From an uncultured Alphaproteobacteria bacterium (GTDB lineage Bacteria; Pseudomonadota; Alphaproteobacteria; HIMB59; GCA-002718135), in NCBI GenBank assembly GCA_902602845.1, contig CACKSN010000006.1:1-56771 (forward strand): DNA of 56,771 nucleotides. Reading direction: 5' to 3'. The translations under genes were made by a program, and so were the position numbers. Each line of letters starts with the position of its first letter. Position 1 is the stretch's first letter. The notes under the pieces were generated by a model. That model had not been told where the DNA came from and ran no database searches. It saw only the letters and a list, made by a program, of their open reading frames with translations. This document shows, in pieces, positions 31,980 to 56,115 of the stretch.

Positions 31980-32828
31980 TTATTGGTGTGTTGGCTTCCA
32001 TTTATCTAGAGCTTCAAGAAACTTGTCTTTTTCCTCCTTACCCATAGATATATTTGTTTTAGAATAGGGGAAATTTCCAGCTACAACCTCATTCTTAAAC
32101 TGACTAAGGGCATCAATTCTTTCTTTATTTATCTGTTTTCTGAGTCTCTTAATATCACCAAATGCATGTGCATGCTTGGGTGGTTTGTCTTCTTCACTTA
32201 AATCTCCACATACATCAGCAACAAATGACATTATTACATCTCCTGCCATTCCGGCTCCTAAGGAAAAGGTAACAACTGATGTTTTATAATTAATTGCTTC
32301 TAAAACTTCCTCTGCTATACATTCAGCCTCTACGGCAAATACACCTACATCTTCCATTCTTTTTAAAGTGTTAAATATTTGTATTGCTTCATCAGCACTT
32401 CTTCCCCAACCTCTTAAACCTCCACAGTAATGACTGAATGTTGGGATAAGTCCGATGTGACTATGAACAGGTATACCTTCTTTAGCCATTTTCTCCATTA
32501 CATCAAATGAACGTAAAGTATAGTACATATCAGCACCTTTCATCATAGAATTAAATGCATCTGCTATTATTTCATCATTAGATCCAAACTGTGCCCATTT
32601 TGATCCAACTCCAGTGAAATGTGATGGGGTAATAGATCTAACCATCTCAATATCACGTGGACCAATAACGAACAGATCGATCCCAGCTTCAACACAAGCT
32701 TTGATTTCCTCTTCATTAGCAGGATTAGACATTGTTAATTTTTTTGGGGATGTTTTTAATTCTTTAAGATCAGAAACTGTATAATTTCTTTTAGCGGGAT
32801 TACGACTGAAATCATATATACGTTTCAT
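31980..32828 (-). CDS. PanB/ketopantoate hydroxymethyltransferase-superfamily protein, divergent (not expected to be PanB)
   Basis: AGIDLFVIGPRD, KGADMYYTLRS, IPVHSHIGLIP, VFAVEAECIAEEV align with PanB core. Confidence 0.7.
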   Translation of the reverse strand: MKRIYDFSRNPAKRNYTVSDLKELKTSPKKLTMSNPANEEEIKACVEAGIDLFVIGPRDIEMVRSITPSHFTGVGSKWAQFGSNDEIIADAFNSMMKGADMYYTLRSFDVMEKMAKEGIPVHSHIGLIPTFSHYCGGLRGWGRSADEAIQIFNTLKRMEDVGVFAVEAECIAEEVLEAINYKTSVVTFSLGAGMAGDVIMSFVADVCGDLSEEDKPPKHAHAFGDIKRLRKQINKERIDALSQFKNEVVAGNFPYSKTNISMGKEEKDKFLEALDKWKPTHQ

Positions 32829-32914
32829 AGTTATTTTCTATTTTTTATTTTATTTATCTTATCTGCATCAAAAATAATAACAAGTGATTTTTTTTTGAAT
32901 TATTAATATTTTAT

Positions 32915-33655
32915 TTAGTATGTAGCTCTACCACCACTTAGATCAAAAACAGCAGATGTAGTATAAGAATTTTCTTCTGAAACCAACCAAGCAACCATAG
33001 ATGCTAACTCCTCTACTTTAAGAAATCTATTTCTAGGAATTTTAGATAACATATAATCAATGTGCTCTTGACTAATTTGGTCAAAGATTCTAGTTTTTGC
33101 TGCAGCTGGAGTTATACAATTTACTGCTATATTTTTATCAGCTAATTCTTTACCTAAAGATTTTGTTATAGCAATTACACCAGCTTTAGCTGCACTATAT
33201 GGCATTGCATTTGGATTGCCTTCTTTCCCTGCAATTGATGCAACATTTACTATTCTGCCATAATTGTTTTTTATCATTTGAGGCACAACATATTTACAAC
33301 AGTAAAAAACTCCCGTTAAATCAATATCAATAACTTTTTGCCAATCATCATTTGGATATTCCCAAGTTTTATGATTGGGTCCAGCTATTCCAGCATTGTT
33401 AACTAAGATATCAATTCTGTCACATTTTTTTGTTGTTTCATTTACAGCGGCCTCAACACTTTCTGCATTACTAACGTCAGTTTGAATTTTATGAACATTA
33501 CTTATAGTTTGAAATTCATCTAATAACTTTTTATCATTCTCCCATATAACAACATTTGCACCAGAATTCAGAAATCTTTCAACTACCGCTAATCCAAAAC
33601 CTTGAACTCCTCCTGTAACAATTGCAACTTTGTCTTTTAAGTCTATTTGATTCAT
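32915..33655 (-). CDS. Short-chain dehydrogenase/reductase
   Basis: TGGVQGFGLAV, NNAGIAG, YSAAKAGVIAITKSLG. Confidence 0.93.
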   Translation of the reverse strand: MNQIDLKDKVAIVTGGVQGFGLAVVERFLNSGANVVIWENDKKLLDEFQTISNVHKIQTDVSNAESVEAAVNETTKKCDRIDILVNNAGIAGPNHKTWEYPNDDWQKVIDIDLTGVFYCCKYVVPQMIKNNYGRIVNVASIAGKEGNPNAMPYSAAKAGVIAITKSLGKELADKNIAVNCITPAAAKTRIFDQISQEHIDYMLSKIPRNRFLKVEELASMVAWLVSEENSYTTSAVFDLSGGRATY

Positions 33656-42433: not shown

Positions 42434-44167
42434 TTAATGACTATGTCTTTTAACTTCTGAGCCGCGTTTTCCAACTAAAAAATCTAAATCAGCACCAGTA
42501 TCTGCTTGAGTTACATGATCAATATACATTTTTTGATAACCACTTTTTATTTCTGGTAGAATAGGCTCATAATTTTCAAGTCTACTTTTAATTATAGAAT
42601 CATCAAGAAGCACATTCATTGTTCCTTTTTCAACATCAATTTCAATCATATCATTATTTTGAACTGCAGCCAAAGGTCCTTTAATAGCTGCTTCAGGTGC
42701 AGTATGTAGTATTACAGTCCCATAAGCTGTACCACTCATTCTAGCATCAGAAATTCTAATCATATCTTTAATTCCTTTTTTAAGTAATTTTTGAGGCAAT
42801 CTCATATTTCCTACTTCTGCCATACCGGGATATCCTTTTGGACCACAATTTTTCAAAACCAATATTGAATTTTGATCTACATCTAAATTTGGATCATCAA
42901 TTTTTTCATGAAACTCTTCTACACTTTCAAACACTACAGCTTTTCCTTTATGTTTCATTAATTCAGGCGTAGCTGCAGATGGTTTGATAATTGCACCATC
43001 AGGCGCAATATTGCCTCTTAAGATTTTGATACCGCCATCATTTACCAATGGTTTATCAAAGTTTTTAATTACATCATCGTTCCAACATTTAGCATTTTTA
43101 TTATTTTCAAATATAGTTTTTCCATTTGCAGTCATTGAATCATTATTAAGTAAATTTTTTTCTATTAATCTTTTAACCACAACGGGAACACCACCTGCGT
43201 AATAAAAATCTTCCATTAAATATTTTCCTGAAGGTTGTAAATTTACAAGAGTTGGAATATCCTTACCACATCTTTCCCAATCACTTAATTTTAAATCAAT
43301 TTCTAATCTTCCTGCAATTGCTGCTAGATGTATTACAGCATTTGTAGATCCGCCTATTGCACCGTTTACTTTGATTGCATTTTCAAATGATTTCTTATTA
43401 ACAATTTTGGACATTATTAAGTTTTCTTTTACCATATCAACAATTCTTTTACCTGACATGTACGCAAGTGAGTATCTTCTTGCATCAACTGCTGGTATTG
43501 CAGCATTATGAGGTAATGACATACCGAGTGCTTCTACCATACTTCCCATTGTGGAAGCGGTGCCCATAGTCATACAATTTCCTTTAGATCTACTCATAGC
43601 AATCTCTGCTTCAATGAAGTCATCTTCTGTAATTTTTCCTGCACTTAAATCTGCATCCAGACGCCAAACACCTGTTCCAGAACCAATTGTTTCTCCTCTG
43701 TGGTGCCCATTAAGCATTGGACCACCTGATACACCTATTGTAGGCAAATCAACACTTGCAGCACCCATGAGAAGTGACGGTGTAGTTTTATCACAACCCA
43801 TAAGTAAGACTACCCCATCTATAGGATTTCCTCTTATTGCTTCTTCTACATCCATGCTAGCAAGATTTCTAAACAACATTGCTGTTGGTCTTAAATTTGA
43901 CTCACTTGCTGAAAAAACAGGAAACTCTAATGGAAAACCGCCAGCTTCATAAACTCCCTTTTTAACTGACTCAGCTATTTCTCGAAAGTGTCCATTACAA
44001 GGGGTTAACTCAGACCAAGTATTACATATACCTATGACTGGTCTACCATCGAACAAATGATTTGGATGTCCTTGATTTCTCATCCATCCTCTATGCACAA
44101 AAGTATCCCTTTTATGATCTTTAGAGTTATACCAATCTGTGGATCTAAATTTATTTTTTTTTGCCAT
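42434..44167 (-). CDS. IlvD/Edd-family sugar-acid dehydratase (arabonate/xylonate-type)
   Basis: RPVIGICNTWSELTPCNGHFREIA, LLMGCDKTTPSLLMGA, GNCMTMGTASTMGSM, DARMSGTAYGTVILH. Confidence 0.92.
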   Translation of the reverse strand: MAKKNKFRSTDWYNSKDHKRDTFVHRGWMRNQGHPNHLFDGRPVIGICNTWSELTPCNGHFREIAESVKKGVYEAGGFPLEFPVFSASESNLRPTAMLFRNLASMDVEEAIRGNPIDGVVLLMGCDKTTPSLLMGAASVDLPTIGVSGGPMLNGHHRGETIGSGTGVWRLDADLSAGKITEDDFIEAEIAMSRSKGNCMTMGTASTMGSMVEALGMSLPHNAAIPAVDARRYSLAYMSGKRIVDMVKENLIMSKIVNKKSFENAIKVNGAIGGSTNAVIHLAAIAGRLEIDLKLSDWERCGKDIPTLVNLQPSGKYLMEDFYYAGGVPVVVKRLIEKNLLNNDSMTANGKTIFENNKNAKCWNDDVIKNFDKPLVNDGGIKILRGNIAPDGAIIKPSAATPELMKHKGKAVVFESVEEFHEKIDDPNLDVDQNSILVLKNCGPKGYPGMAEVGNMRLPQKLLKKGIKDMIRISDARMSGTAYGTVILHTAPEAAIKGPLAAVQNNDMIEIDVEKGTMNVLLDDSIIKSRLENYEPILPEIKSGYQKMYIDHVTQADTGADLDFLVGKRGSEVKRHSH

Positions 44168-45069
44168 TAGAAATATCCTAAAGATTTTGCAATATTTTTT
44201 GATTTCTTAATTCCAAAATCAGTTGGTTTAAGAAAAGGTTTACGATCATAAACATTTTTTACTCCCATCCTAAATGCACATACTCTCTTACCGTAACATA
44301 CTAAAGAGTCAATTGATTGCATAATGAAAACTATGTTTGGAAGCATATTCCTATATTCATTTTTAGCATTAATTAATTTTTTTTGCTTAAAAAGTTGAAA
44401 TATTTTTACAAACTTATCAGCTCCGTCTAAACAAGGAACAATGCCCTTACAACCAATTATTAAATTATCAACAATCTCTTGCCCTCCTCGACCATTAAAC
44501 ACCGTAAGGTCTTTTGGAAGTTCCATTAATTCCTTTTGCATTAAATAAGATGAAGCTTCACCTTTTATTGCTCTAAAATTCTTAAAAAGTTTGTATAATT
44601 TATTTATTTGATTTGTTGTTAATCCTACACCTATATATTCCTTAGCATTTTGTATACCTGTCAAAGTTCCTGCAGTTGTTGGAATTATTTTTTTAAAAAA
44701 ATTATAACAATCTTTGTCTGTAGTATTTTTTTTTATCATTGGTTGGAGTATTAACCAGTCTATATTATTTGATTTTGAAATTTCAATTAATTTTATATAT
44801 TCATTATAATTTTTAGATTGTATTGTTATTGCTTTTGGTTTCTTTGCTGGAGTATGATCTGATAATAATTCTATAATTTTTATTTTTTCCTTAAATGATA
44901 ATTTATTAACTTCAGTAGCCAAACCAAGAGCAGCTATTCCATGACAGCGTTGTTCAAAAATTAATTTAATTTGATCTTCCATTAATTTAAAGTCAATGGA
45001 ATTATTTTTATTAAAAAAAGTGTAAAGGATTGGAAAGATTCCTTCTATTTTTTTTATATTGATCACCAA
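44167..45069 (-). CDS. DapA/NAL-superfamily aldolase/dehydratase
   Basis: HGIAALGLATEVNKLSFKEK, RAIKGEASS Schiff-base Lys context. Confidence 0.8.
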   Translation of the reverse strand: MVINIKKIEGIFPILYTFFNKNNSIDFKLMEDQIKLIFEQRCHGIAALGLATEVNKLSFKEKIKIIELLSDHTPAKKPKAITIQSKNYNEYIKLIEISKSNNIDWLILQPMIKKNTTDKDCYNFFKKIIPTTAGTLTGIQNAKEYIGVGLTTNQINKLYKLFKNFRAIKGEASSYLMQKELMELPKDLTVFNGRGGQEIVDNLIIGCKGIVPCLDGADKFVKIFQLFKQKKLINAKNEYRNMLPNIVFIMQSIDSLVCYGKRVCAFRMGVKNVYDRKPFLKPTDFGIKKSKNIAKSLGYF

Positions 45070-46238
45070 TCAACTACTGTTCCATCTTCTAGATATGCAT
45101 CAGTTGTAGGAATTATTTCTTGTTTAAATGGATATTTTTCTGCTTCTTTTTCATTCACTTCAATACCTAGACCAGGAGTTATTGGAACTTTCCAATGATC
45201 TTTTACTCTTTCAACTGGCGTTGATGAAATTACATCATCATACCAAGGAACAGATTTATCCATAACTTCTTGGATTATATGATTTGTGGTTGAGCAAGCA
45301 AAATGTAGGGCAGCAGCACCTGCTATTGGTCCATTTGGATTATGAGGAGCCACTCCTATATTTGCAACTGATGCAGCAGCAGCAATATTTTTCGCTTCCA
45401 ACAAACCGCCGCAGTGGTTTAAATCTGGCTGAATTATGTCGACAACGCGATTTGAAATGATTTCTTCAAATTCCTGATGTCCAATTAATCTTTCTCCTGT
45501 AGCAAGAGGGCAATTGATTGAATTTTTAATTTGTAACAAAGTTTTATTATCTCCAGGCAAAATTGGTTCTTCAATAAAATAAGGATTATAAGGCTGTAAC
45601 TCTTTAACATATTGAATAGCAGATTTACCTGATGCACATCTACCATGAAAATCAACCATAATATCAATTTCATCACCGACTACTTCACGCAATGATGACA
45701 TTAATTGATTTACCTTATTTAGATTTTTTAGAGAATTTGTATGGTGTGTAAAAGGAATAAACACAACCTTAAATGCTTTATAACCTTTTTCTAAAAGTGC
45801 AGAAGCATGTTCATTTAATTTATTTTTTTCCATTGTATCTTTATAAACTGCATTCATATCACCCATTCCTAAATGAGTATAAATTTTGATTTTATTTCGA
45901 ACTTTACCACCAAGTAATTGCCAAACAGGTGTACTTAAACTTTTACCAAGAATATCCCAAAGTGCATGTTCTATACCACTTACAGCAGACATTCCAATAA
46001 CACCTAGTTTCCAAAATCCATGCTTCGTCATAATTTGAAAGTTTTGTTTTATATCTCTTGGATCCTTACCTACTAATAAAGGCTTTATATCTTCAATTGC
46101 ACCAACTACTGCTCTTGTTTTCCATTCTACTGTAGCCTCTCCCCAACCATATAAATCTTTATCTGTAATAACTTTTACAAATACCCAATTACGCATCTCA
46201 GCATTTACAATAGTGGTTTTAATATCAATAATTTTCAT
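45063..46238 (-). CDS. Mandelate racemase/enolase-superfamily, galactonate dehydratase-like
   Basis: NWVFVKVITDKDLYGWGEATVEWKTRAV, SGIEHALWDILGK, IMVDFHGR, FIEEPILPGDN, APHNPNGPI. Confidence 0.88.
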   Translation of the reverse strand: MKIIDIKTTIVNAEMRNWVFVKVITDKDLYGWGEATVEWKTRAVVGAIEDIKPLLVGKDPRDIKQNFQIMTKHGFWKLGVIGMSAVSGIEHALWDILGKSLSTPVWQLLGGKVRNKIKIYTHLGMGDMNAVYKDTMEKNKLNEHASALLEKGYKAFKVVFIPFTHHTNSLKNLNKVNQLMSSLREVVGDEIDIMVDFHGRCASGKSAIQYVKELQPYNPYFIEEPILPGDNKTLLQIKNSINCPLATGERLIGHQEFEEIISNRVVDIIQPDLNHCGGLLEAKNIAAAASVANIGVAPHNPNGPIAGAAALHFACSTTNHIIQEVMDKSVPWYDDVISSTPVERVKDHWKVPITPGLGIEVNEKEAEKYPFKQEIIPTTDAYLEDGTVVDW

Positions 46239-46240
46239 AA

Positions 46241-47395
46241 TTAAAAAATTTTTTCTTTATTTACGAATATTTCTACATCAACATTATATTGATCTAAAGC
46301 ACTTTGATTAATTTTCATTCCATGACCAACTTCTTCAGGGATGCTTATATAACCATTTTGATCCATAGAAATATGATTTTCAGTTAAATCCCACGCTAAT
46401 GATTTAAGCTGCTGAGGAAACTCAGAAAATTTACTTTTGTTTGAGCTTGCATATGGTTGTAATGAAGAAGATAGTTGTAGATGTGAAGTAAATGTATGGT
46501 TGACATATTGAACATCATGACTTTCCGCAAAGTCACAGATTTCTTTTCCAGCGAGAATACCACCAGCTATTCCTGCATCAATTTGAATAAATTTAACTTT
46601 ACCAAATCTAATCATATTTTTAGCAGATTCAATTGAGTGGCACGACTCTCCTCCAGCAAGAGGTAGGTTAGTTTTTTTATAAAGTTCACTGTATTCGTAA
46701 AAAGCATCTGAAAAAAAAGGCTCCTCTAACCAAGTTATTTTAGCATTTTGAAAAATGTCTAATCTTTTTTCAGCATCTTCTATATTCGTCCCCCAAATCG
46801 CACCAACATCAATCATCAATTCTAATTCATTACCAATTGCATCTCGTGCTGCCACAAGATGTTCTTGATCATTTTTTAAATCTAAACCAAAATTTTCCCA
46901 ACCAAGCTTAATGGCCTGAAAATTATTCTTTTTTAAATTTTTTGTTACTTCAAAAGTATCTTGAGGTGTCTTTCCAAATAATACTGAAGCATAAGCAATT
47001 TTTGGATTATTTTTTTTCATTCCCAGTAAAGAATAGATTGGACAATTTTCTTTTTTTGCTAACAAATCCAAAAGGGCAACCTCTATACCTGAAAAAGTAT
47101 GTGGTGTTTGAGCAATCATTAAAGATCTATGCTTTACTGTATGAATTATTTTTTTAATATCATCCAGATTGTTTAAATTCTTACCTAAAATTGAATCACG
47201 GATTGGATTTGCAGCTGAATGTGATTTAGGACATATAAAATTTGCTATTGAAGTTAATGGTGAGGCTTCACATTCACCCCAGCCTTCTAATCCTCCACCT
47301 TCAACTTTAACAATTAACGCATCTTGACTTCCATCTGCTTCATCCAATATCTGAGGCATTGATAAATAAAAAAGTTGAATATTTTCAATTTTCAT
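46241..47395 (-). CDS. Mandelate racemase/muconate lactonizing enzyme-family protein
   Basis: LMIDVGAIWG, WLEEPFFSD, LAGGESCHSIE, FIQIDAGIAGG. Confidence 0.88.
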   Translation of the reverse strand: MKIENIQLFYLSMPQILDEADGSQDALIVKVEGGGLEGWGECEASPLTSIANFICPKSHSAANPIRDSILGKNLNNLDDIKKIIHTVKHRSLMIAQTPHTFSGIEVALLDLLAKKENCPIYSLLGMKKNNPKIAYASVLFGKTPQDTFEVTKNLKKNNFQAIKLGWENFGLDLKNDQEHLVAARDAIGNELELMIDVGAIWGTNIEDAEKRLDIFQNAKITWLEEPFFSDAFYEYSELYKKTNLPLAGGESCHSIESAKNMIRFGKVKFIQIDAGIAGGILAGKEICDFAESHDVQYVNHTFTSHLQLSSSLQPYASSNKSKFSEFPQQLKSLAWDLTENHISMDQNGYISIPEEVGHGMKINQSALDQYNVDVEIFVNKEKIF

Positions 47396-47397
47396 AA

Positions 47398-48189
47398 TTA
47401 TCCAGCACCTGTATCATCATTTTCATGCATTCTTAATGTAATGCCTCCATCAACAACAATATTAGCACCAATCATGTAGTTGCATTCATCAGACGACATA
47501 AACATAATGACATTGGCAATTTCATCTGTGGTTCCCATTCTCTTGATAGGTTGATGATTTTCAGCTTCTTTTCTTGCTTCTTGTGGATTAGGTTTAGTTT
47601 GAAAAAATCTTTCTACTATTGGTGTATCTATATACCCAGGTGAAATAGAATTAATTTTAATACCTTTTGAAGCATAATCTACTGCCAATGCTTTTGTTAA
47701 TCCTATTACTCCGTGTTTAGCAACTGGGTATGGAAAACAATTAGGAATTATTTGGATGCCGTGAACTGAAGCTACATTTACAATGCAACCCTTGTTTTTT
47801 TTTAACATATGTGGAAGTACTGCCTTACATCCAAACCAAACTCCATCAAGATCAACAGAAAAAGCTCTTTTCCATTCACTGTCTGGCATATTTAATGGTT
47901 CTCCAAATACATTTATTCCTGCATTGTTTATAAGAATATCAGGAGATCCAAATTCGATTGAAGTCTTATCAACCATTTGATTAACAGTTTCAAAACTAGC
48001 AACATTTGTTTCAACAAATAGAGCAGAACCATTTGACTTGCTTATTATATCTGAGACTCGCTTCCCATTTTTTGGATCAATATCTGCAATAACTACTTTT
48101 GCTCCTTCTTTAGCAAATTTAATTGCTGTTGTTTCCCCAATGCCTGATCCAGCACCAGTAACTATAACAACTTTATTTTTGAATCTCAT
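47398..48189 (-). CDS. Short-chain dehydrogenase/reductase (sugar 1-dehydrogenase-like)
   Basis: TGAGSGIGETTAIKFAKEG, NNAGINV, YPVAKHGVIGLTKALA. Confidence 0.92.
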   Translation of the reverse strand: MRFKNKVVIVTGAGSGIGETTAIKFAKEGAKVVIADIDPKNGKRVSDIISKSNGSALFVETNVASFETVNQMVDKTSIEFGSPDILINNAGINVFGEPLNMPDSEWKRAFSVDLDGVWFGCKAVLPHMLKKNKGCIVNVASVHGIQIIPNCFPYPVAKHGVIGLTKALAVDYASKGIKINSISPGYIDTPIVERFFQTKPNPQEARKEAENHQPIKRMGTTDEIANVIMFMSSDECNYMIGANIVVDGGITLRMHENDDTGAG

Positions 48190-48213: not shown

Positions 48214-49110
48214 TTAATTAGCAAATTTGAAGTCAGGTTTTCCTTGAACATCAGTTTGTATTGCAAAAAGATTACCTGAGTGTGGAGCTTTTCCTAATTC
48301 TTCATTACTCATACCAATTCTGGCTGTTGTAATAAATAAAGTTTTAAGATCTTTTCCTCCAAAAGTGCAACTAGTTACGTTTGGAACGGGTAATTCAATA
48401 ACTCTATCAACATTTCCATCAGGATCAAAACGAACTACACATGATCCACCCCATCTACAATTCCATAAATAACCCTCTGAATCCACAGTCGATCCATCTG
48501 GGTAACCTCTATCAAACTTAGCAAATTCCTGTTTATTTAAAATTTTATTATTTTTAAAATCATAATCATAAGAATTGATTATACCTGTCAATGTATCACA
48601 AAAATAAAATTTATCATTTTCAGGACTCCATGCAAAAGTATTAGATACGCCTATGTTATTTTCATGATTTTGAATTTTAAATTCTTTATCAATGCAATAA
48701 AGTGAACCAGAGTTTTTTTTAATATCAATATTACTTCCATCAGGAGCAATATTATTTTGCATTGTTCCAACCCAAAAGTTGCCAAGAAAATCTGCTGCAC
48801 CATCATTACATCTATTTTCTGGTTTACCTGGCTCTATTTTTATGATTGGTTCAAATTTCTTTTCAGCTAAATTATAGTTATTTAATCCATAATGTGATGC
48901 TATTAGAAGATTACTTTCTGATCTCTCTGCCATAGCAGTTATCATTTCAGGCATTGCATAAGTGTTATATTCCCTAGTATCGAATGAGTAACTGTGTAGT
49001 TTTGATGGCATTGGAATATCTAACCAAAATAAAGTATTTGTTGAATTAGACCAAAGAGCTCCTTCTCCCAAGATGTTATGACACTCTTGAAAGATTTCTA
49101 CTTTATTCAC
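48214..49110 (-). CDS. SMP-30/gluconolactonase-family sugar lactonase
   Basis: LGEGALWSNSTNTLFWLDI, NRCNDGAADFLGNFWVGTM, YPDGSTVDSEGYLWNCRWGGSCVVRFDPDG. Confidence 0.92.
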   Translation of the reverse strand: MNKVEIFQECHNILGEGALWSNSTNTLFWLDIPMPSKLHSYSFDTREYNTYAMPEMITAMAERSESNLLIASHYGLNNYNLAEKKFEPIIKIEPGKPENRCNDGAADFLGNFWVGTMQNNIAPDGSNIDIKKNSGSLYCIDKEFKIQNHENNIGVSNTFAWSPENDKFYFCDTLTGIINSYDYDFKNNKILNKQEFAKFDRGYPDGSTVDSEGYLWNCRWGGSCVVRFDPDGNVDRVIELPVPNVTSCTFGGKDLKTLFITTARIGMSNEELGKAPHSGNLFAIQTDVQGKPDFKFAN

Positions 49111-50087
49111 GCAGGAACTGATAATGGAATTTGATAATTTGGATTTTTAGCTTGTTTAAATAGTGCAGGTAAAATTTCTTTGTAAGCTCCCCATAAACCT
49201 TTTCTTATTGGAGGCATTTGATCTTTAATCATTTCATGAAGTTTTGGTAAGTTATAGGATGGCACTTGAGGAAACATATGATGTTCAATGTGATACTCCA
49301 TTTGCCAATATAAAAAACTAAAAATAGGATTTAATTTTACTGTTCGCGTAGTATATCTATGATCCTTAACATTTTCTTGCAAACCAGCATGTTGTGTTAA
49401 TCCGAATAGTGATATTAATGTTTTTCCATAAAAATTTGGAAGAACAATAAATAATAAAGGCAGCCAGGATTGAAAATAAATTGAAGCAACAATTGTTGCT
49501 ACCCAAATAACAACATGACTTCTAGCTGACCATCTGCATTTGGAACGTTCACTTTCTGGAATACATACACGCATAACTTCAGTTGTTACGCCAAAAGCGT
49601 GCTTTAATGTTTCCCAATGAAGAGATTTTGTAAAAAAAATAAATCCAGAAAAAGGTAAGTACCATGAGAAGAACATAATTAAATCAGTTGGTTTTTGAAC
49701 ATGAATTTCAAAATCAAGTGGATCAGTGAAGATTGTATGTGAATGGTGGTGATGGTGTGAATATCGCCATCTAATTGGTTCAAAATTATCCATAAAGCTT
49801 GCTATGAAGTAGAAAAAATCATTCCAAAATCTGCTTTTAAAAGCTGTCCTATGACCTGTCTCATGCCATAGAGCATCGGCGCAACCCCAAATATTTCCAT
49901 ATATTATAAAGAAAAGAATGCACCACCATGTACCCCAGGTAGCATAAGCTAAATAACCAAAAAAGAATAAGGCTGAAAAATAAATAATCATGTGTTTGAA
50001 ACCTTGCCAGTCTGACTTCTTGCAAAGCTTTTTAAACTCTTTCTTATCTATTTGACAACGATACCAATTGTTTAAGTCTATATCCAT
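49107..50087 (-). CDS. Membrane fatty-acid desaturase/hydroxylase superfamily (diiron His-box) protein
   Basis: HETGH, HHHHHSH, QMEYHIEHHMFPQVPSYNLPKLH histidine boxes; several TMs. Confidence 0.9.
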   Translation of the reverse strand: MDIDLNNWYRCQIDKKEFKKLCKKSDWQGFKHMIIYFSALFFFGYLAYATWGTWWCILFFIIYGNIWGCADALWHETGHRTAFKSRFWNDFFYFIASFMDNFEPIRWRYSHHHHHSHTIFTDPLDFEIHVQKPTDLIMFFSWYLPFSGFIFFTKSLHWETLKHAFGVTTEVMRVCIPESERSKCRWSARSHVVIWVATIVASIYFQSWLPLLFIVLPNFYGKTLISLFGLTQHAGLQENVKDHRYTTRTVKLNPIFSFLYWQMEYHIEHHMFPQVPSYNLPKLHEMIKDQMPPIRKGLWGAYKEILPALFKQAKNPNYQIPLSVPA

Positions 50088-50154
50088 CTTGTATTAATAT
50101 AGTGGATAATAAAAAAATATCCTCAAAAATCAACTTATTTATCTGTGACCTTTT

Positions 50155-50982
50155 TTAATATTTATCAGCTAATTTTAAAAATTCTTCGTATTCTCTATCT
50201 TCTATCCCAACAGTAATTTTTGGATCATTAAATGTTTGATTGACAGTATCAGAATGAAATTCTTTAAAGGCTGAAAGTCTCTCGTTTTGGAGTTTATCAA
50301 ATTCAGCTTTAAAATTTCTATATATTCTAGCATGTCTAGGGACATGACCCTGCGTATATCCCAATACATCATTTGCAAACAAATATTGTCCATCACAATC
50401 AGAACCACTGCCCATTGAAAGAGTAATAATGTCGACTTTTTGAGTTATTATTGCTGCGACTTTTGGAGGCACAACCTCTAGCTCAACCCCAATTGCTCCT
50501 GCCTCTTGTAATTCAATTGTATGTTTTAAAACCCCCTCAGCTTCATCAGCTGTTTTCCCTATTGCTCTAAAACCTCCAATCCAAGTAGCCTTTCCTGGAA
50601 CCAATCCTACATGACTATTAATTGGAATATTTTCATCTCTTAAAGCTCTAATTATTTTATAACTCCAATTGCCTCCATAAATTACATCAGCTCCAATTTC
50701 CAAATATTTATGCGATACCTTCATTGCATCATATTCTGAAGCTATGTTATTTGCTGTACCTGATTGCATGAAACATGATGGAGCTGCTTCTCTAATTCTT
50801 TTAAGTTCATCAAAACTGTTATAAATTCCATATTGAGGAGCATCATGTGAAGTGCAGATCATATCTATACCTGCTTCCTCCGCAGCTCTTGCTTCTTCGA
50901 CATTATGAACAAAAAGAACACTGAGTTGTCTTTTACCCTTACATTTTAAATAGTCATAAACTGTTAGTTTTTTTCTAGACAT
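50155..50982 (-). CDS. PanB/ketopantoate hydroxymethyltransferase-superfamily protein, divergent
   Basis: AGIDMICTSHDAPQYG, GADVIYGGNWS, IPINSHVGLVP, GVELEVVP, DCDGQYLFANDVLGYTQGHVPRHARIY. Confidence 0.82.
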   Translation of the reverse strand: MSRKKLTVYDYLKCKGKRQLSVLFVHNVEEARAAEEAGIDMICTSHDAPQYGIYNSFDELKRIREAAPSCFMQSGTANNIASEYDAMKVSHKYLEIGADVIYGGNWSYKIIRALRDENIPINSHVGLVPGKATWIGGFRAIGKTADEAEGVLKHTIELQEAGAIGVELEVVPPKVAAIITQKVDIITLSMGSGSDCDGQYLFANDVLGYTQGHVPRHARIYRNFKAEFDKLQNERLSAFKEFHSDTVNQTFNDPKITVGIEDREYEEFLKLADKY

Positions 50983-51128: not shown

Positions 51129-52109
51129 ATGAAAAAATTATTAGCTTTTATTGCTGTTTGCTTTGCATTTACTGCTGGCTCAGCAATTGCAAAAAATGAT
51201 TACTCTTGTGACAAAAAGTTTATATTCTTTCCAGGTGGACCAGAAGGTGGACCCTTTGGAACTATTGTTTACAATGGTGCTGTTGCTGCTGCAGAGCACA
51301 CTGGTTGTGATGTTGATTATTATTGGTCACAATGGAATTCTGAAATTATGATTAAACAATTTAAAGAAGCTGTTGCTTTAGAACCAGATGGAATTGCAAT
51401 TTATGGATTTCCTGGTGACGAAGCTATGAGACCTATAATTAAAGAAGCTAGAGAAAAAGGAATTGTTATTACAACAATGAATACTCCGCTTCCTGATCTT
51501 GAAGCTGAATACAAAACCGCTGGTTTTGGATATGCTGGTGCAGATCTTTTTACTGCAGGATATAATTTAGGTAAGAAAGCAGTGGAAGTTTGTGGTTTAC
51601 AAGCTGGTGATAAAGCATTTATTTGGGGTCTCGCTAGTATGCCTAACAGAGGTGAAAGAACTAAAGGCGCAATAGCTGGTGTCGAAGACATGGGTGTTGA
51701 AGTTGTTTATCAAGAAATTCCAGATAACGTAAACTCAGATGCATCGCAAGGTACGCCAATGTACGTATCAACTTACAGTGCTAATCCTGATATTAAAATG
51801 GCTATAACTGATCACGGTGGATTAACAGCAAGTTTACCTACCTACATGAAAGCAGCTGGCCATGGTACTGAAGAAGTTTGTGGTGCCGGATTTGATTTAT
51901 CTGCTCCAATCGTTGACGGAATTAATTCTGGATATATTGATGTTGTAATTGATCAACAGCCTTTTATTCAAGGATATATTCCAATTGTTCAACTATTCTT
52001 AAGTACAAAATATGGAATGGCTGGACTTGCAATGGATACTGGTGCAGCATTTGTGACTGCAGATAATGTAGAAGCAATTGCTCCATTAGCAGCAGTTCAA
52101 ATTAGATAA
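51129..52109 (+). CDS. CUT2 sugar solute-binding protein (FrcB-like position)
   Basis: Signal peptide; KFIFFPGGPEGGPFGTIVYNGAVAAAEHTGCDVDYYWSQWN; SD gggggaa. Confidence 0.9.
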   Translation: MKKLLAFIAVCFAFTAGSAIAKNDYSCDKKFIFFPGGPEGGPFGTIVYNGAVAAAEHTGCDVDYYWSQWNSEIMIKQFKEAVALEPDGIAIYGFPGDEAMRPIIKEAREKGIVITTMNTPLPDLEAEYKTAGFGYAGADLFTAGYNLGKKAVEVCGLQAGDKAFIWGLASMPNRGERTKGAIAGVEDMGVEVVYQEIPDNVNSDASQGTPMYVSTYSANPDIKMAITDHGGLTASLPTYMKAAGHGTEEVCGAGFDLSAPIVDGINSGYIDVVIDQQPFIQGYIPIVQLFLSTKYGMAGLAMDTGAAFVTADNVEAIAPLAAVQIR

Positions 52110-52121
52110 TTTGATAAAATT

Positions 52122-52145
52122 AAGCCTGCCCAAAGTGGCAGGCTT
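52122..52145 (+). terminator. Hairpin downstream of SBP (AAGCCTGCC/GGCAGGCTT, 6-nt loop)
   Basis: 9-bp perfect inverted repeat in SBP-ATPase intergenic gap. Confidence 0.75.
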
Positions 52146-52159
52146 TAAAAATATAAAAT

Positions 52160-52927
52160 ATGCCTGAACAACTTTTAAAACTTGAAAATATTTATAAAAA
52201 TTTTGGAAATGTAAAAGTTCTTAAAGATGTAAATATTACAATTAATAAAGGTGAAGTTGTTGCATTAATAGGTGATAATGGAGCTGGCAAATCTACATTA
52301 ATTAAAGTAATTACAGGTGTACATACTCCAAACTCAGGTAAAATTTTTTTTAAAGAAAAAGAAGTTCAAATAAAATCTGTGTCTCAATCTAGAAAAATGG
52401 GAATTGAAGCTGTCTATCAAGAAAGAGCTTTGTGTGATCAGCAAGAACTCTATAGAAATATTTTTGCTGGAAGAGAAGTTACAAATTCATTTGGTTTTTT
52501 AAAAATTAAAGAACAAAGAAAAGAAGCAGAGAGAATATTAAGAGATTATATTGGGTTTACATCAAAAGCTATAACTGTTGACTCTCAAGTTATGGGTCTA
52601 TCAGGTGGAGAAAAACAAGGTGTTGCATTTGGACGTTCATTATATTTTAACTCAGATTTAATCGTTTTAGATGAGCCAACAATGGGTTTATCAATACAAG
52701 AAACAGAAAAAGTTTTAAATTTTGTTAAAGGTTTAAAAAATGAAAATAAATCAGCAATTTTTATAGATCATAATATAATTCATGTTTATGGAGCTGCAGA
52801 TAGATTTATTATTTTAGATAGAGGAGAAGTCGTTGGAGAATTTTTAAAAGATCAAATTTCAAGAGAAGAGTTAGTTCAAAAAATGATTCAATTACACGAA
52901 TCAGGCAAAATAAAAGTAGAGGCATAG
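52160..52927 (+). CDS. Sugar ABC transporter ATP-binding protein, single ABC domain (FrcA-like)
   Basis: GDNGAGKSTLIKVITG, LSGGEKQGVAFGRSL, LIVLDEPTMGLS. Confidence 0.93.
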   Translation: MPEQLLKLENIYKNFGNVKVLKDVNITINKGEVVALIGDNGAGKSTLIKVITGVHTPNSGKIFFKEKEVQIKSVSQSRKMGIEAVYQERALCDQQELYRNIFAGREVTNSFGFLKIKEQRKEAERILRDYIGFTSKAITVDSQVMGLSGGEKQGVAFGRSLYFNSDLIVLDEPTMGLSIQETEKVLNFVKGLKNENKSAIFIDHNIIHVYGAADRFIILDRGEVVGEFLKDQISREELVQKMIQLHESGKIKVEA

Positions 52928-53908
52928 ATGTTAAGCAGTATACTGAATAGCTATTTTGTAAAAACACATCGTTTAGAGATTAGCATAACAATTATTGCTA
53001 TAGTTTTATTTTTAATTTATTTTTTTGGTGCTACTCATGTATTCACTAGATTCCCAATATACAGAGCTTTTATGCAATCAATGCCCTTTTTTGGCATAAT
53101 TGCAATATCAGCTACATTCGTGGTAACACTTGGTGAAATTGATTTATCATTTCCATCAATAGTTGGAATAACGTCTTTAACATTTGGAATGCTATTAACT
53201 GGTACAGATGGAAACTTTTTTATTTCATTTGCTCTTGCAACTGCATTAGGTATGTTTGCAGGTTTAGTAAATGGACTTTTGGTAACAAAAATAGGTATAC
53301 CATCTATTGTTGCTACAATAGGGACATTATTTTTTTGGAGAGGTTTGGTAAATGTAATCTCCCAGGGGAGTGGTATTGCGATAGTTGACGAAGCCGATGG
53401 AACTTGGCATCATACTATATTTGTTGATAAATTGTTCGATACAATACCAGCCCAGTTTATTTGGTTTGTTGCTCTAACAGGTTTAATGCAATGGGTATAT
53501 CGCTATCATAAATTCGGTAATCATATCCATTTTGTTGGAGATAATAAAGCAAGTGCTCAAATGATGGGTATTAATGTTGATAGAGTTAAAATAATTGCAT
53601 TTGTTCAACTAGGATTTTTCTCTGCTCTTGCAGGAATATTTACGATGTATGAAATGCTCTATTTTTGGCCAACTCAAGGTTCAGGATTAATGTTAACAAC
53701 TCTTGCCGCAGTTTTTGTGGGAGGTACTTCTGTTTTTGGAGGCAAAGGCACAGTTTATGGAACTTTTATTGGAGTTCTCATAATTGGATCACTTGAATCA
53801 GGTATTGTAGCACTTGGTCTCTCAGGTTTTTATGTACAATTTATCAATGGCTTAATGATAACAATTGCTGTAACAATTTACGCTCTCATTCAAAAAAGAA
53901 AAGCATAA
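52928..53908 (+). CDS. CUT2 sugar ABC transporter permease (FrcC-like)
   Basis: VTLGEIDLSFPSIVGITSLTFGM, AVFVGGTSVFGGKGTVYGTFIG. Confidence 0.93.
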   Translation: MLSSILNSYFVKTHRLEISITIIAIVLFLIYFFGATHVFTRFPIYRAFMQSMPFFGIIAISATFVVTLGEIDLSFPSIVGITSLTFGMLLTGTDGNFFISFALATALGMFAGLVNGLLVTKIGIPSIVATIGTLFFWRGLVNVISQGSGIAIVDEADGTWHHTIFVDKLFDTIPAQFIWFVALTGLMQWVYRYHKFGNHIHFVGDNKASAQMMGINVDRVKIIAFVQLGFFSALAGIFTMYEMLYFWPTQGSGLMLTTLAAVFVGGTSVFGGKGTVYGTFIGVLIIGSLESGIVALGLSGFYVQFINGLMITIAVTIYALIQKRKA

Positions 53909-53909
53909 G

Positions 53910-54881
53910 ATGAAACAAGCCCTTTGGCTAGATTCAATTAGTAATAATAAAATTTTAAAATATAGTAGATTAAAAGGCGGAGTTTCATCAGAAGTTTACA
54001 AAGTCGTTACTAAAAAAAATATATATTGTATTAAAAGATCGCTTAAAAAATTATTAGTTCAAAAGGAATGGATAGTTGATCAAAATCGGATTTATTATGA
54101 ATATTTATGGCTTGTACATTGTAAAAAATTTTTAAAACAAAATGTACCTGTTATTTATGATTTTAACAAAGAAGAAAAATATATTATTATGGAATACTTA
54201 GATAATACTAAATATAAAACATTAAAAGAATTGTATTTTGAAAAAAAGATAAATTTCAGTACAATCAAATCAATAAGTAAGCATTTGTATAAAATTCACT
54301 CTTTAAGCAATGATGTTAAAACTAGGAAAATATTTAGGCGTAATAATCAAAATTTTTTTGATTTAAGATTAGATCCATATTTTAATGAGGTAGCAAGAGT
54401 ATTTCCTGAATTAAATGATAAAGTTAAACAAATAAACAAATCATATAGAGAAAATTCATCGACATTAGTTCACGGTGATTTTAGTCCTAAAAATATTTTA
54501 ATTGGCAAAAATAGAATATTATATTTAGATGCAGAATGTTGTAATTATGGTGATCCTGTTTTTGATCTAGTTTTTTTTTCTAATCATTTACTAATTAAAA
54601 GCATGTATTTTGAATCAAAAAAGAAAGAATTTTTAAAAGCGTTTAAAATATTTTACAATCATTACTTAAAAAATTTTAATAAAAAAAATAAAATAAATTA
54701 TTTAAAAAGAATAATTGATATGATACCAATAATGTTATTAGCAAGAGTTGATGGTAAATCTCCAGTAGAGTATATTAAGTCAAAAAAATTGAAGAATAAT
54801 ATAAGAGAAAAATCATTTAAAATGATTAAAAATAAATTACTAGATTTAGATGATATTATTAAAATAATTTATGAAAAATAA
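53910..54881 (+). CDS. APH/choline-kinase-fold small-molecule kinase
   Basis: TLVHGDFSPKNILIG (catalytic loop), LYLDAECCNYGDPVFDLVFF (DxE-type metal site). Confidence 0.85.
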   Translation: MKQALWLDSISNNKILKYSRLKGGVSSEVYKVVTKKNIYCIKRSLKKLLVQKEWIVDQNRIYYEYLWLVHCKKFLKQNVPVIYDFNKEEKYIIMEYLDNTKYKTLKELYFEKKINFSTIKSISKHLYKIHSLSNDVKTRKIFRRNNQNFFDLRLDPYFNEVARVFPELNDKVKQINKSYRENSSTLVHGDFSPKNILIGKNRILYLDAECCNYGDPVFDLVFFSNHLLIKSMYFESKKKEFLKAFKIFYNHYLKNFNKKNKINYLKRIIDMIPIMLLARVDGKSPVEYIKSKKLKNNIREKSFKMIKNKLLDLDDIIKIIYEK

Positions 54882-56115
54882 ATCCCATATAAAGAAAGTA
54901 AATTGTAGGAGAGTATTTGATTCTAGAGGAAATCCTACAATCGAAGTTGAAATAATAACTGAAAATGACTCTTTTGGAAAAGCAATTAGTCCATCAGGTG
55001 CTTCAACTGGAACTAATGAAGTAATAGAAGTTAGAGATAACGATAATATGTTTGGTGGAAAAGATGTTAAAAAAGCATTGGAAATAATTAATAAAAAAAT
55101 TGCACCAAATTTAATTGGGTTATCTTGTGAAGATCAAAATGGTTTTGATAATACTTTAATTAGCTTAGATAAATCAGTACTCAAAGAAAATATTGGTGGC
55201 AATGTTACAACAGCACTTTCCATTGCAAATTATCTTTGTGCAAGTAACTTTAATGCTGAACATACTTTCATTTATCATTCCGAGTCAAATAAATTTTTTA
55301 TTCCTAAGCCAGAAATACAGATATTTGGAGGAGGTGCACATGCAAACAAAAATAATACTTTTCAGGATTTTTTAATTTATCCTATTGTTGATCTATCTTG
55401 TGAAGATTATTTTGATTCTGTTTACAATATTACTAACACTATAAAAAAAAAATTAGTAAATAACCAAAACTTTTTTGGGTATTGTGATGAAGGTGGATTA
55501 TATCCAAATAATCTGGATCAATTTCAAATTTGCGATATTATAAATGAATCAATTATAGAAAACAAAATTATACCAGGCAAAGAAATTGGGATTTCAATTG
55601 ATGTCGCAGCATCTAATTTTCATTCAAATGGTATTTATACACTTTATGATAAAGAGTTAGACTCAAAAGAATTAACAAATATATTTGATATTCTAATTAA
55701 TAAATTTAATGTTAGTCTTATTGAAGACCCATATGATGAAAATGATATTTCCTCATTTATAGCTTTAAAGAATCAATATGGATTATTAACATCAATTATT
55801 GGAGATGATTTAATTTGTACAAATTACAGTCTTTTAGAAAATGCAATTCAAAAAAAAGCAATAGATGGTTTAATAGTAAAAATTAATCAATGTGGCACTA
55901 TTTCAGAAACTTTGAAAACGATAAAGTTAGCTAAAGAAAATAATATTAAAACAATTTTGTCGGCTAGATCGGGAGATACAGAGGAAAATTTTCTAAGTCA
56001 TTTAGCTGTAGCATGGGAAACTGATATGATTAAAGTTGGATCATTTGCAAGAAGTGAAAGAACGTCCAAATGGAACGAACTTGTAAGAATAGAAGAAAAG
56101 ATTAATAAAATTTAA
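54871..56115 (+). CDS. Enolase-family paralog with altered active site
   Basis: FDSRGNPTIEVE, SPSGASTGTNE, CDEGGLYPN, IGDDLICTN, VKINQCGTISE, SARSGDTEE, IKVGSFARSER. Confidence 0.9.
   Translation: MKNKSHIKKVNCRRVFDSRGNPTIEVEIITENDSFGKAISPSGASTGTNEVIEVRDNDNMFGGKDVKKALEIINKKIAPNLIGLSCEDQNGFDNTLISLDKSVLKENIGGNVTTALSIANYLCASNFNAEHTFIYHSESNKFFIPKPEIQIFGGGAHANKNNTFQDFLIYPIVDLSCEDYFDSVYNITNTIKKKLVNNQNFFGYCDEGGLYPNNLDQFQICDIINESIIENKIIPGKEIGISIDVAASNFHSNGIYTLYDKELDSKELTNIFDILINKFNVSLIEDPYDENDISSFIALKNQYGLLTSIIGDDLICTNYSLLENAIQKKAIDGLIVKINQCGTISETLKTIKLAKENNIKTILSARSGDTEENFLSHLAVAWETDMIKVGSFARSERTSKWNELVRIEEKINKI

Follow-up and report, generated by a model that had tools for sequence, protein, structure and literature searches.

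An APH-fold kinase and an enolase paralog form a conserved gene pair with a putative role in hydroxy-acid breakdown

The locus and its enolase paralog

The window analysed here is a stretch of 56,771 nucleotides from contig CACKSN010000006.1 of an uncultured alphaproteobacterium (HIMB59; GCA-002718135), whose genome assembly, GCA_902602845.1, comprises 1.02 Mb in 57 contigs and is 68% complete. Five plus-strand genes of the window encode a substrate-binding protein (SBP), a single-domain ABC ATPase, a permease, a kinase of the APH fold and an enolase-like protein (Table 1). The permease start abuts the ATPase stop, the kinase gene begins 1 nt past the permease gene, and the enolase-like gene overlaps the kinase gene by 11 nt; a PanB-like gene on the minus strand is divergent from the SBP gene across a gap of 146 bp. 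This layout, with its coordinates, spacing and overlap, reproduced that of the original prediction made from the DNA letters, and Pfam matches upheld the protein families named there for all six genes. As described below, the kinase and the enolase paralog constitute a conserved unit, separate from the housekeeping enolase, in which the catalytic core is preserved and two substitutions are diagnostic. The pair is probably an undescribed route of hydroxy-acid breakdown that databases mislabel as the enolase of glycolysis.

The proposed paralogy was borne out by a second, canonical enolase encoded elsewhere in the same genome (37% identity). This copy is flanked by pyrG-, kdsA-, short ftsB-like and pdhA-like genes, a neighbourhood that reads as a housekeeping-type setting; a canonical enolase is present alongside the module in 22 of 25 genomes tested. 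In an alignment of all enolases collected (residue numbering is that of E. coli enolase), every module enolase carries Asp at Glu168 and Ala at His370, two residues that are kept in all canonical enolases aligned. H159, Q167, E209, D246, E290, D317, K342, R371, S372 and K393 are kept in the module enolases; S42 is changed to Ala in most proteobacterial modules and kept in that of the window. In a tree of 78 unique sequences, a single branch with a support of 100/98 parts 56 module from 21 canonical enolases. The signature residues and the tree rule out an ordinary eno duplication. A homology search with the window enolase retrieved only canonical Lactobacillus-type enolases, which were used purely as controls. 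Compared with enolase (phosphopyruvate hydratase; TIGR01060, EC 4.2.1.11), the module members share the fold, both domains, the metal ligands, the catalytic Lys and Glu209, whereas they differ by E168D and H370A, by their separate clade, by being paralogs of the housekeeping copy and by their coupling to a kinase. The window module enolase scores 369.7 bits on TIGR01060 (NCBIfam eno; cut-off 300), so that automatic annotation will mislabel it.

Mutants of yeast enolase at His373, the equivalent of E. coli His370, are reportedly impaired. In Mycobacterium tuberculosis enolase, the Glu168 equivalent touches the substrate carboxylate and is assigned, together with the Glu209 equivalent, to the water chemistry at C3, and its Ala variant is non-functional (PMC10619443). 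The most economical reading of the module sequences is that the enolisation chemistry is intact and the pocket around the substrate is changed. A catalytically dead paralog with a regulatory or structural role would agree with the loss of His370, the residue mutated in the yeast studies, but is extremely improbable given the cross-phylum conservation of all metal ligands and of Lys342, Lys393, Glu209, Arg371 and Ser372. Alternatively, the variant might catalyse a different elimination or an isomerisation, expelling another C3 substituent or epimerising C2 of a 2-phospho acid: the two changes sit in an otherwise kept site, and canonical enolase uses Glu168 and Glu209 for the water at C3 (PMC10619443). 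We regard this as quite unlikely, as all module enolases retain Glu209, to which hydroxide removal is ascribed, and the gene context resembles that of sugar-acid dehydration.

The module kinase and the distribution of the pair

The module kinase has both the APH fold and its catalytic HxD...N and DxE/D motifs; K42, H188-G-D190-x-S-P-K-N195 and D207-A-E209 are invariant across 30 members. The AlphaFold2 model, obtained with an alignment of the window sequence and genome-derived rows, is confident, with a pLDDT of 92.8. Its nearest solved folds are 5-methylthioribose kinases (2pyw; TM 0.82–0.86), followed by PsiK, LxmK and aminoglycoside kinases. Although 5-methylthioribose kinase is thus the best structural match among the APH-fold small-molecule kinases, the module kinase is only 16% identical to it and bears HGDxSPKN and RVDGKSPVEY signatures of its own. 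Identity with methylthioribose kinase (MtnK) was rejected (TIGR01767, 55 bits; cut-off 275), and the window kinase falls below every curated NCBIfam equivalog cut-off. Neither of the glycerate kinase Pfams (MOFRL, PF05161; Gly_kinase, PF02595) matches it; only APH, EcKL and fructosamine-kinase profiles do.

Searching a class sample of 385 evenly drawn Alphaproteobacteria genomes with the kinase profile, we found the kinase in 39, in a single copy each and at 290–441 bits, as for a clean family. At 31 of the 38 kinase loci outside the window, the enolase gene directly adjoins the kinase gene in the same orientation; the kinase comes first in 30 of them, and the overlaps are mostly of 4 nt. The remaining seven loci comprise one with an intervening gene, one at a contig edge, two in genomes with a module enolase elsewhere and three with a canonical enolase only. 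Genomes G438, G104 and G418 contain the kinase and a canonical enolase but no module enolase; loci at which the kinase lacks an adjoining enolase are L214, L216, L219, L225 and L226. The two genes are likewise neighbours in Betaproteobacteria, Actinomycetota, Bacteroidota and Halobacteria, and the pair was found in Persicobacter, Caballeronia, Sinorhizobium and Azospirillum. On plasmids searched by tblastn, kinase relatives adjoin eno-annotated genes in Methylobacterium, Paracoccus, Roseibium, Rhodococcus, Sphingobium and haloarchaea, and a Rhizobium plasmid carries both inside one cluster. Kinase and enolase distances correlate with an r of 0.84, a value inflated by shared ancestry.

Kinase–enolase adjacency is thus conserved within the genus of the window and found again in many unrelated bacteria and in haloarchaea, and the pair is a real, recurrent, conserved module. 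It looks catabolic: paralogy and conserved adjacency support the predicted kinase–enolase catabolic step apart from glycolysis, with a distribution far wider than the window suggests. No described kinase–enolase catabolic pair was found in the open-access literature, to which the search extended.

A different arrangement was seen on an Enterobacter chuandaensis plasmid (L072, 7196–18861), where a kinase homolog and an enolase-like protein carrying E209K and H370G are encoded divergently. The operon contains genes for an aminotransferase, oxidoreductases, an M14 peptidase, an MFS transporter and a nucleotidyltransferase, and the cluster looks biosynthetic. We set it apart from the modules on account of the two substitutions, its long tree branch and the biosynthesis-like cluster.

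Table 1. Features of the kinase–enolase locus and of the neighbouring sugar-acid genes in the window
Feature	Position	Strand	Family or remark
SBP, Peripla_BP_4 (CUT2 sugar type)	51129..52109	+	PF13407
Single-domain ABC ATPase	52160..52927	+	one PF00005
CUT2-type permease (BPD_transp_2)	52928..53908	+	PF02653
Module kinase, APH fold, HGDxSPKN and RVDGKSPVEY signatures	53910..54881	+	APH/EcKL, PF01636/PF02958
Module enolase (paralog), 11-nt overlap with the kinase gene	54871..56115	+	Enolase_N and Enolase_C
Codon of Asp166, aligned to Glu168 of E. coli enolase	55366..55368	+	
Codon of Ala365, aligned to His370 (yeast His373)	55963..55965	+	
PanB-like protein	50155..50982	-	Pantoate_transf; accompanies importer, not pair
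SMP-30/gluconolactonase-type lactonase, candidate aldonate-producing step	48214..49110	-	
SDR dehydrogenase	47398..48189	-	
Mandelate-racemase-type sugar-acid dehydratase homolog	46241..47395	-	
Galactonate dehydratase homolog	45063..46238	-	above NCBIfam cut-off
DHDPS-family aldolase/dehydratase	44167..45069	-	
IlvD/Edd-family sugar-acid dehydratase	42434..44167	-	

Importer and PanB-like gene in the genus

The pair is present in 5 of 61 genus genomes. It directly follows the same importer as that of the window in G024, G040 and G004, and in G043 the two meet at contig ends; these four genomes keep the order of ABC, kinase and enolase genes, including the 11-nt overlap (G043 read across contig ends). 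The importer itself was found, nearly invariant, in 38 genus genomes, with permeases that are 89–100% identical. As the SBP is 93–98% identical among aligned genus members with or without the pair, the importer ligand and the substrate of the kinase may be different compounds, although import of the substrate of the pair by the window ABC system is plausible. At genus loci without the pair, either an SDR gene or the redoxin gene itself comes next after the permease gene. The label 'Frc-like', given to the importer by the original prediction, is only loosely right: like the FrcBCA and other CUT2 sugar importers, it is a three-gene set of CUT2-type SBP, ATPase and permease, but it stays below all curated CUT2 equivalog cut-offs. 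Broad sugar uptake has been reported for marine AEGEAN-169/HIMB59 bacteria (PMC10308909), which the streamlined, AT-rich genomes bring to mind.

The original prediction had joined ABC import, phosphorylation and enolase dehydration to a carbon–carbon bond change by the PanB-like protein. The PanB-like and importer genes are indeed divergent neighbours in the window and close in most genus members. However, the PanB-like gene is on the contig of the importer in most importer-bearing genus genomes, including most of those without the pair, and no PanB-like gene was recognised by homology to the window PanB beside the pair in the loci sampled outside the genus. On these two grounds PanB was rejected as a pathway partner, and the full route is very improbable. 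The PanB-like protein scores 106.8 bits on TIGR00222, below the equivalog cut-off of 207.55. Pair and PanB behave independently, and the pair forms a cassette set behind a conserved importer.

A cassette of an ABC importer, an FA_desaturase-family membrane oxygenase and a PanB-like protein is repeated in the genus (window 49107–50982 and 31980–33655; L151, 10949–16253; L155, 5678–17981; L270). In some genomes a Rieske ferredoxin and a ferredoxin reductase lie between its parts, and up to 8 PanB-like genes occur per genus genome. This cassette has the look of an oxidative route of its own, in which a hydroxylation might precede a one-carbon transfer.

A close DHDPS ortholog (at least 76% identity) occurs in exactly the 5 pair-bearing genus genomes, and an ortholog of the mandelate-racemase-type dehydratase (at least 71%) in 7 of 61, namely these 5 and 2 others. 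The pair thus travels with the sugar-acid block at 44–48 kb of the window, which is an association and not proof, given the physical linkage of the block and the relatedness of the genomes.

Gene neighbourhoods and a candidate route

A Pfam tally of 136 module-flanking genes yielded D-2-hydroxyacid dehydrogenases as the commonest family (15), besides FAH hydrolases (4) and DctP transporters (4); several modules adjoin genes resembling those of 2,4-diketo-3-deoxy-aldonate hydrolases, lactonases and 2-hydroxyacid dehydrogenases. The best match of the FAH protein beside the Paracoccus pair is L-2,4-diketo-3-deoxyrhamnonate hydrolase (8gsr; 277 bits, next 184), and NCBIfam NF053535 scores 352 bits on a pair-neighbouring FAH, under its cut-off of 500. 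In Sinorhizobium chiapasense, an ABC importer, an SDR, a UxuA-like dehydratase, an SMP-30 lactonase, the kinase, the enolase, an FAH protein and a further SDR are encoded in a row. The non-phosphorylative L-rhamnose/L-fucose pathway consists of a sugar dehydrogenase, a lactonase, a dehydratase, an SDR and a 2,4-diketo-3-deoxy-aldonate hydrolase. Its lactonase, SDR and FAH homologs surround several modules, which differ from it in that kinase and enolase stand beside or replace the dehydratase.

The importer SBP was found in only two non-genus genomes of the class sample, G433 and G139, which belong to two other alphaproteobacterial families. In G433 (L211), the SBP (45% identical to that of the window), ATPase (50%) and permease (42%) are followed by kinase, enolase and an SDR; in G139 (L268), which lacks the pair, the SBP (52%), ATPase (58%) and permease (55%) are followed by an SDR and an IlvD/Edd dehydratase. 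The slot behind one importer thus holds either kinase and enolase or a sugar-acid dehydratase. This comparison, the most telling one although limited to two cases, suggests that the pair does the work of a dehydratase.

Other surroundings were seen as well. A conserved rhizobial and burkholderial set around the module (L069, L080, L085, L231, L074 and L084) includes PEP carboxylase (PEP, phosphoenolpyruvate; rhizobia), 2-hydroxyacid dehydrogenase, alcohol dehydrogenase (ADH), FMN reductase, a VOC protein, a cupin, and acyl-CoA and 3-hydroxyacyl-CoA dehydrogenases. The haloarchaeal module on Haladaptatus and Halomarina plasmids (L076, L078) lies amid several mandelate-racemase-family genes, cupins, SDRs and an IlvC-like reductoisomerase.

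PEP carboxylase homologs occur in the module clusters of Rhizobium, Pararhizobium and Sphingobium, with all tested motifs present in the first two, which fits a PEP-like product. A 'hypothetical' gene two genes past the module enolase on the Sphingobium sp. TomTYG74 plasmid (L079, 12626–15370) encodes a divergent homolog (PF00311, 4e-18) without GRGG motifs. The lower branch of the serine cycle runs through hydroxypyruvate reductase, glycerate 2-kinase, enolase and PEP carboxylase, and the same enzyme classes are found in the rhizobial and Sphingobium clusters. The pair could therefore be a portable glycerate-to-PEP cassette, in which an unrecognised D-glycerate 2-kinase is locally coupled to a 2-phosphoglycerate enolase; the neighbouring 2-hydroxyacid dehydrogenases are of the hydroxypyruvate/glyoxylate reductase-like type. 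Yet the module differs from the serine cycle branch by its unrelated kinase family, its altered enolase and its ABC, cupin, VOC and ADH company. Every module enolase lacks His370 and has a shortened Glu168, a canonical enolase is mostly present as well, and FAH, SDR and lactonase neighbours hardly fit a C3 acid. Moreover, of 21 non-genus genomes with the kinase, 20 already possess a MOFRL glycerate kinase, so that the pair would be dispensable there for the mere use of D-glycerate. No such redundancy was found in the genus of the window, where the 5 pair-bearing genomes, all incomplete, yielded no MOFRL gene and 14 genomes searched no Gly_kinase gene, and for the window itself the glycerate alternative hence stays a candidate. 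Overall, we consider it rather unlikely.

We favour, with a probability of about one half, the reading that kinase and enolase paralog catalyse consecutive catabolic steps on an acid with a 2-hydroxy or a 2,3-dihydroxy group, which is most likely a sugar acid (aldonate) of at least 4 carbons. The kinase would phosphorylate the 2-hydroxyl with ATP. The altered enolase would then take the C2 proton via its conserved Lys, the 3-hydroxyl departing as water, to give a C3-substituted analogue of PEP. Loss of the phosphate, for which pyruvate kinase, a PEP-carboxylase-like enzyme or a phosphatase are candidates, would lead to a 2-keto-3-deoxy acid, which an SDR and an FAH-type hydrolase or a DHDPS-type aldolase may cut to pyruvate-level products. 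On balance, the pair would be an ATP-driven stand-in for a sugar-acid dehydratase. Several observations weigh against this proposal, among them that, as mentioned above, no MOFRL gene was found in the pair-bearing genus genomes. Both the window and L083 contain dehydratases alongside the pair, so that replacement is not exclusive. Module neighbourhoods vary, which leaves room for different substrates or for one small acid common to the modules. No recurrent gene for phosphate removal was found around the modules. Within the genus, the importer greatly outnumbers the pair (33 of the 38 importer-positive genus genomes lack it), and only one of its two non-genus homologs is accompanied by the pair. 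In its most specific form, which we put forward tentatively, the module would be an undescribed one that comprises, across domains, an aldonate 2-kinase and a 2-phosphoaldonate enolase and dehydrates aldonates by an ATP-dependent sequence of two steps, an iron-sulfur-free alternative to IlvD/Edd whose members are annotated as glycolytic eno.

Enolase is generally treated as a single-function glycolytic enzyme. If the proposal is true, an enolase clade that bears a distinct active-site signature and is coupled to a kinase in bacteria and archaea would have left glycolysis for the catabolism of other acids. It would also expose a systematic misannotation, since the module genes pass the eno cut-off, and would provide a two-residue test usable by any genome annotator.

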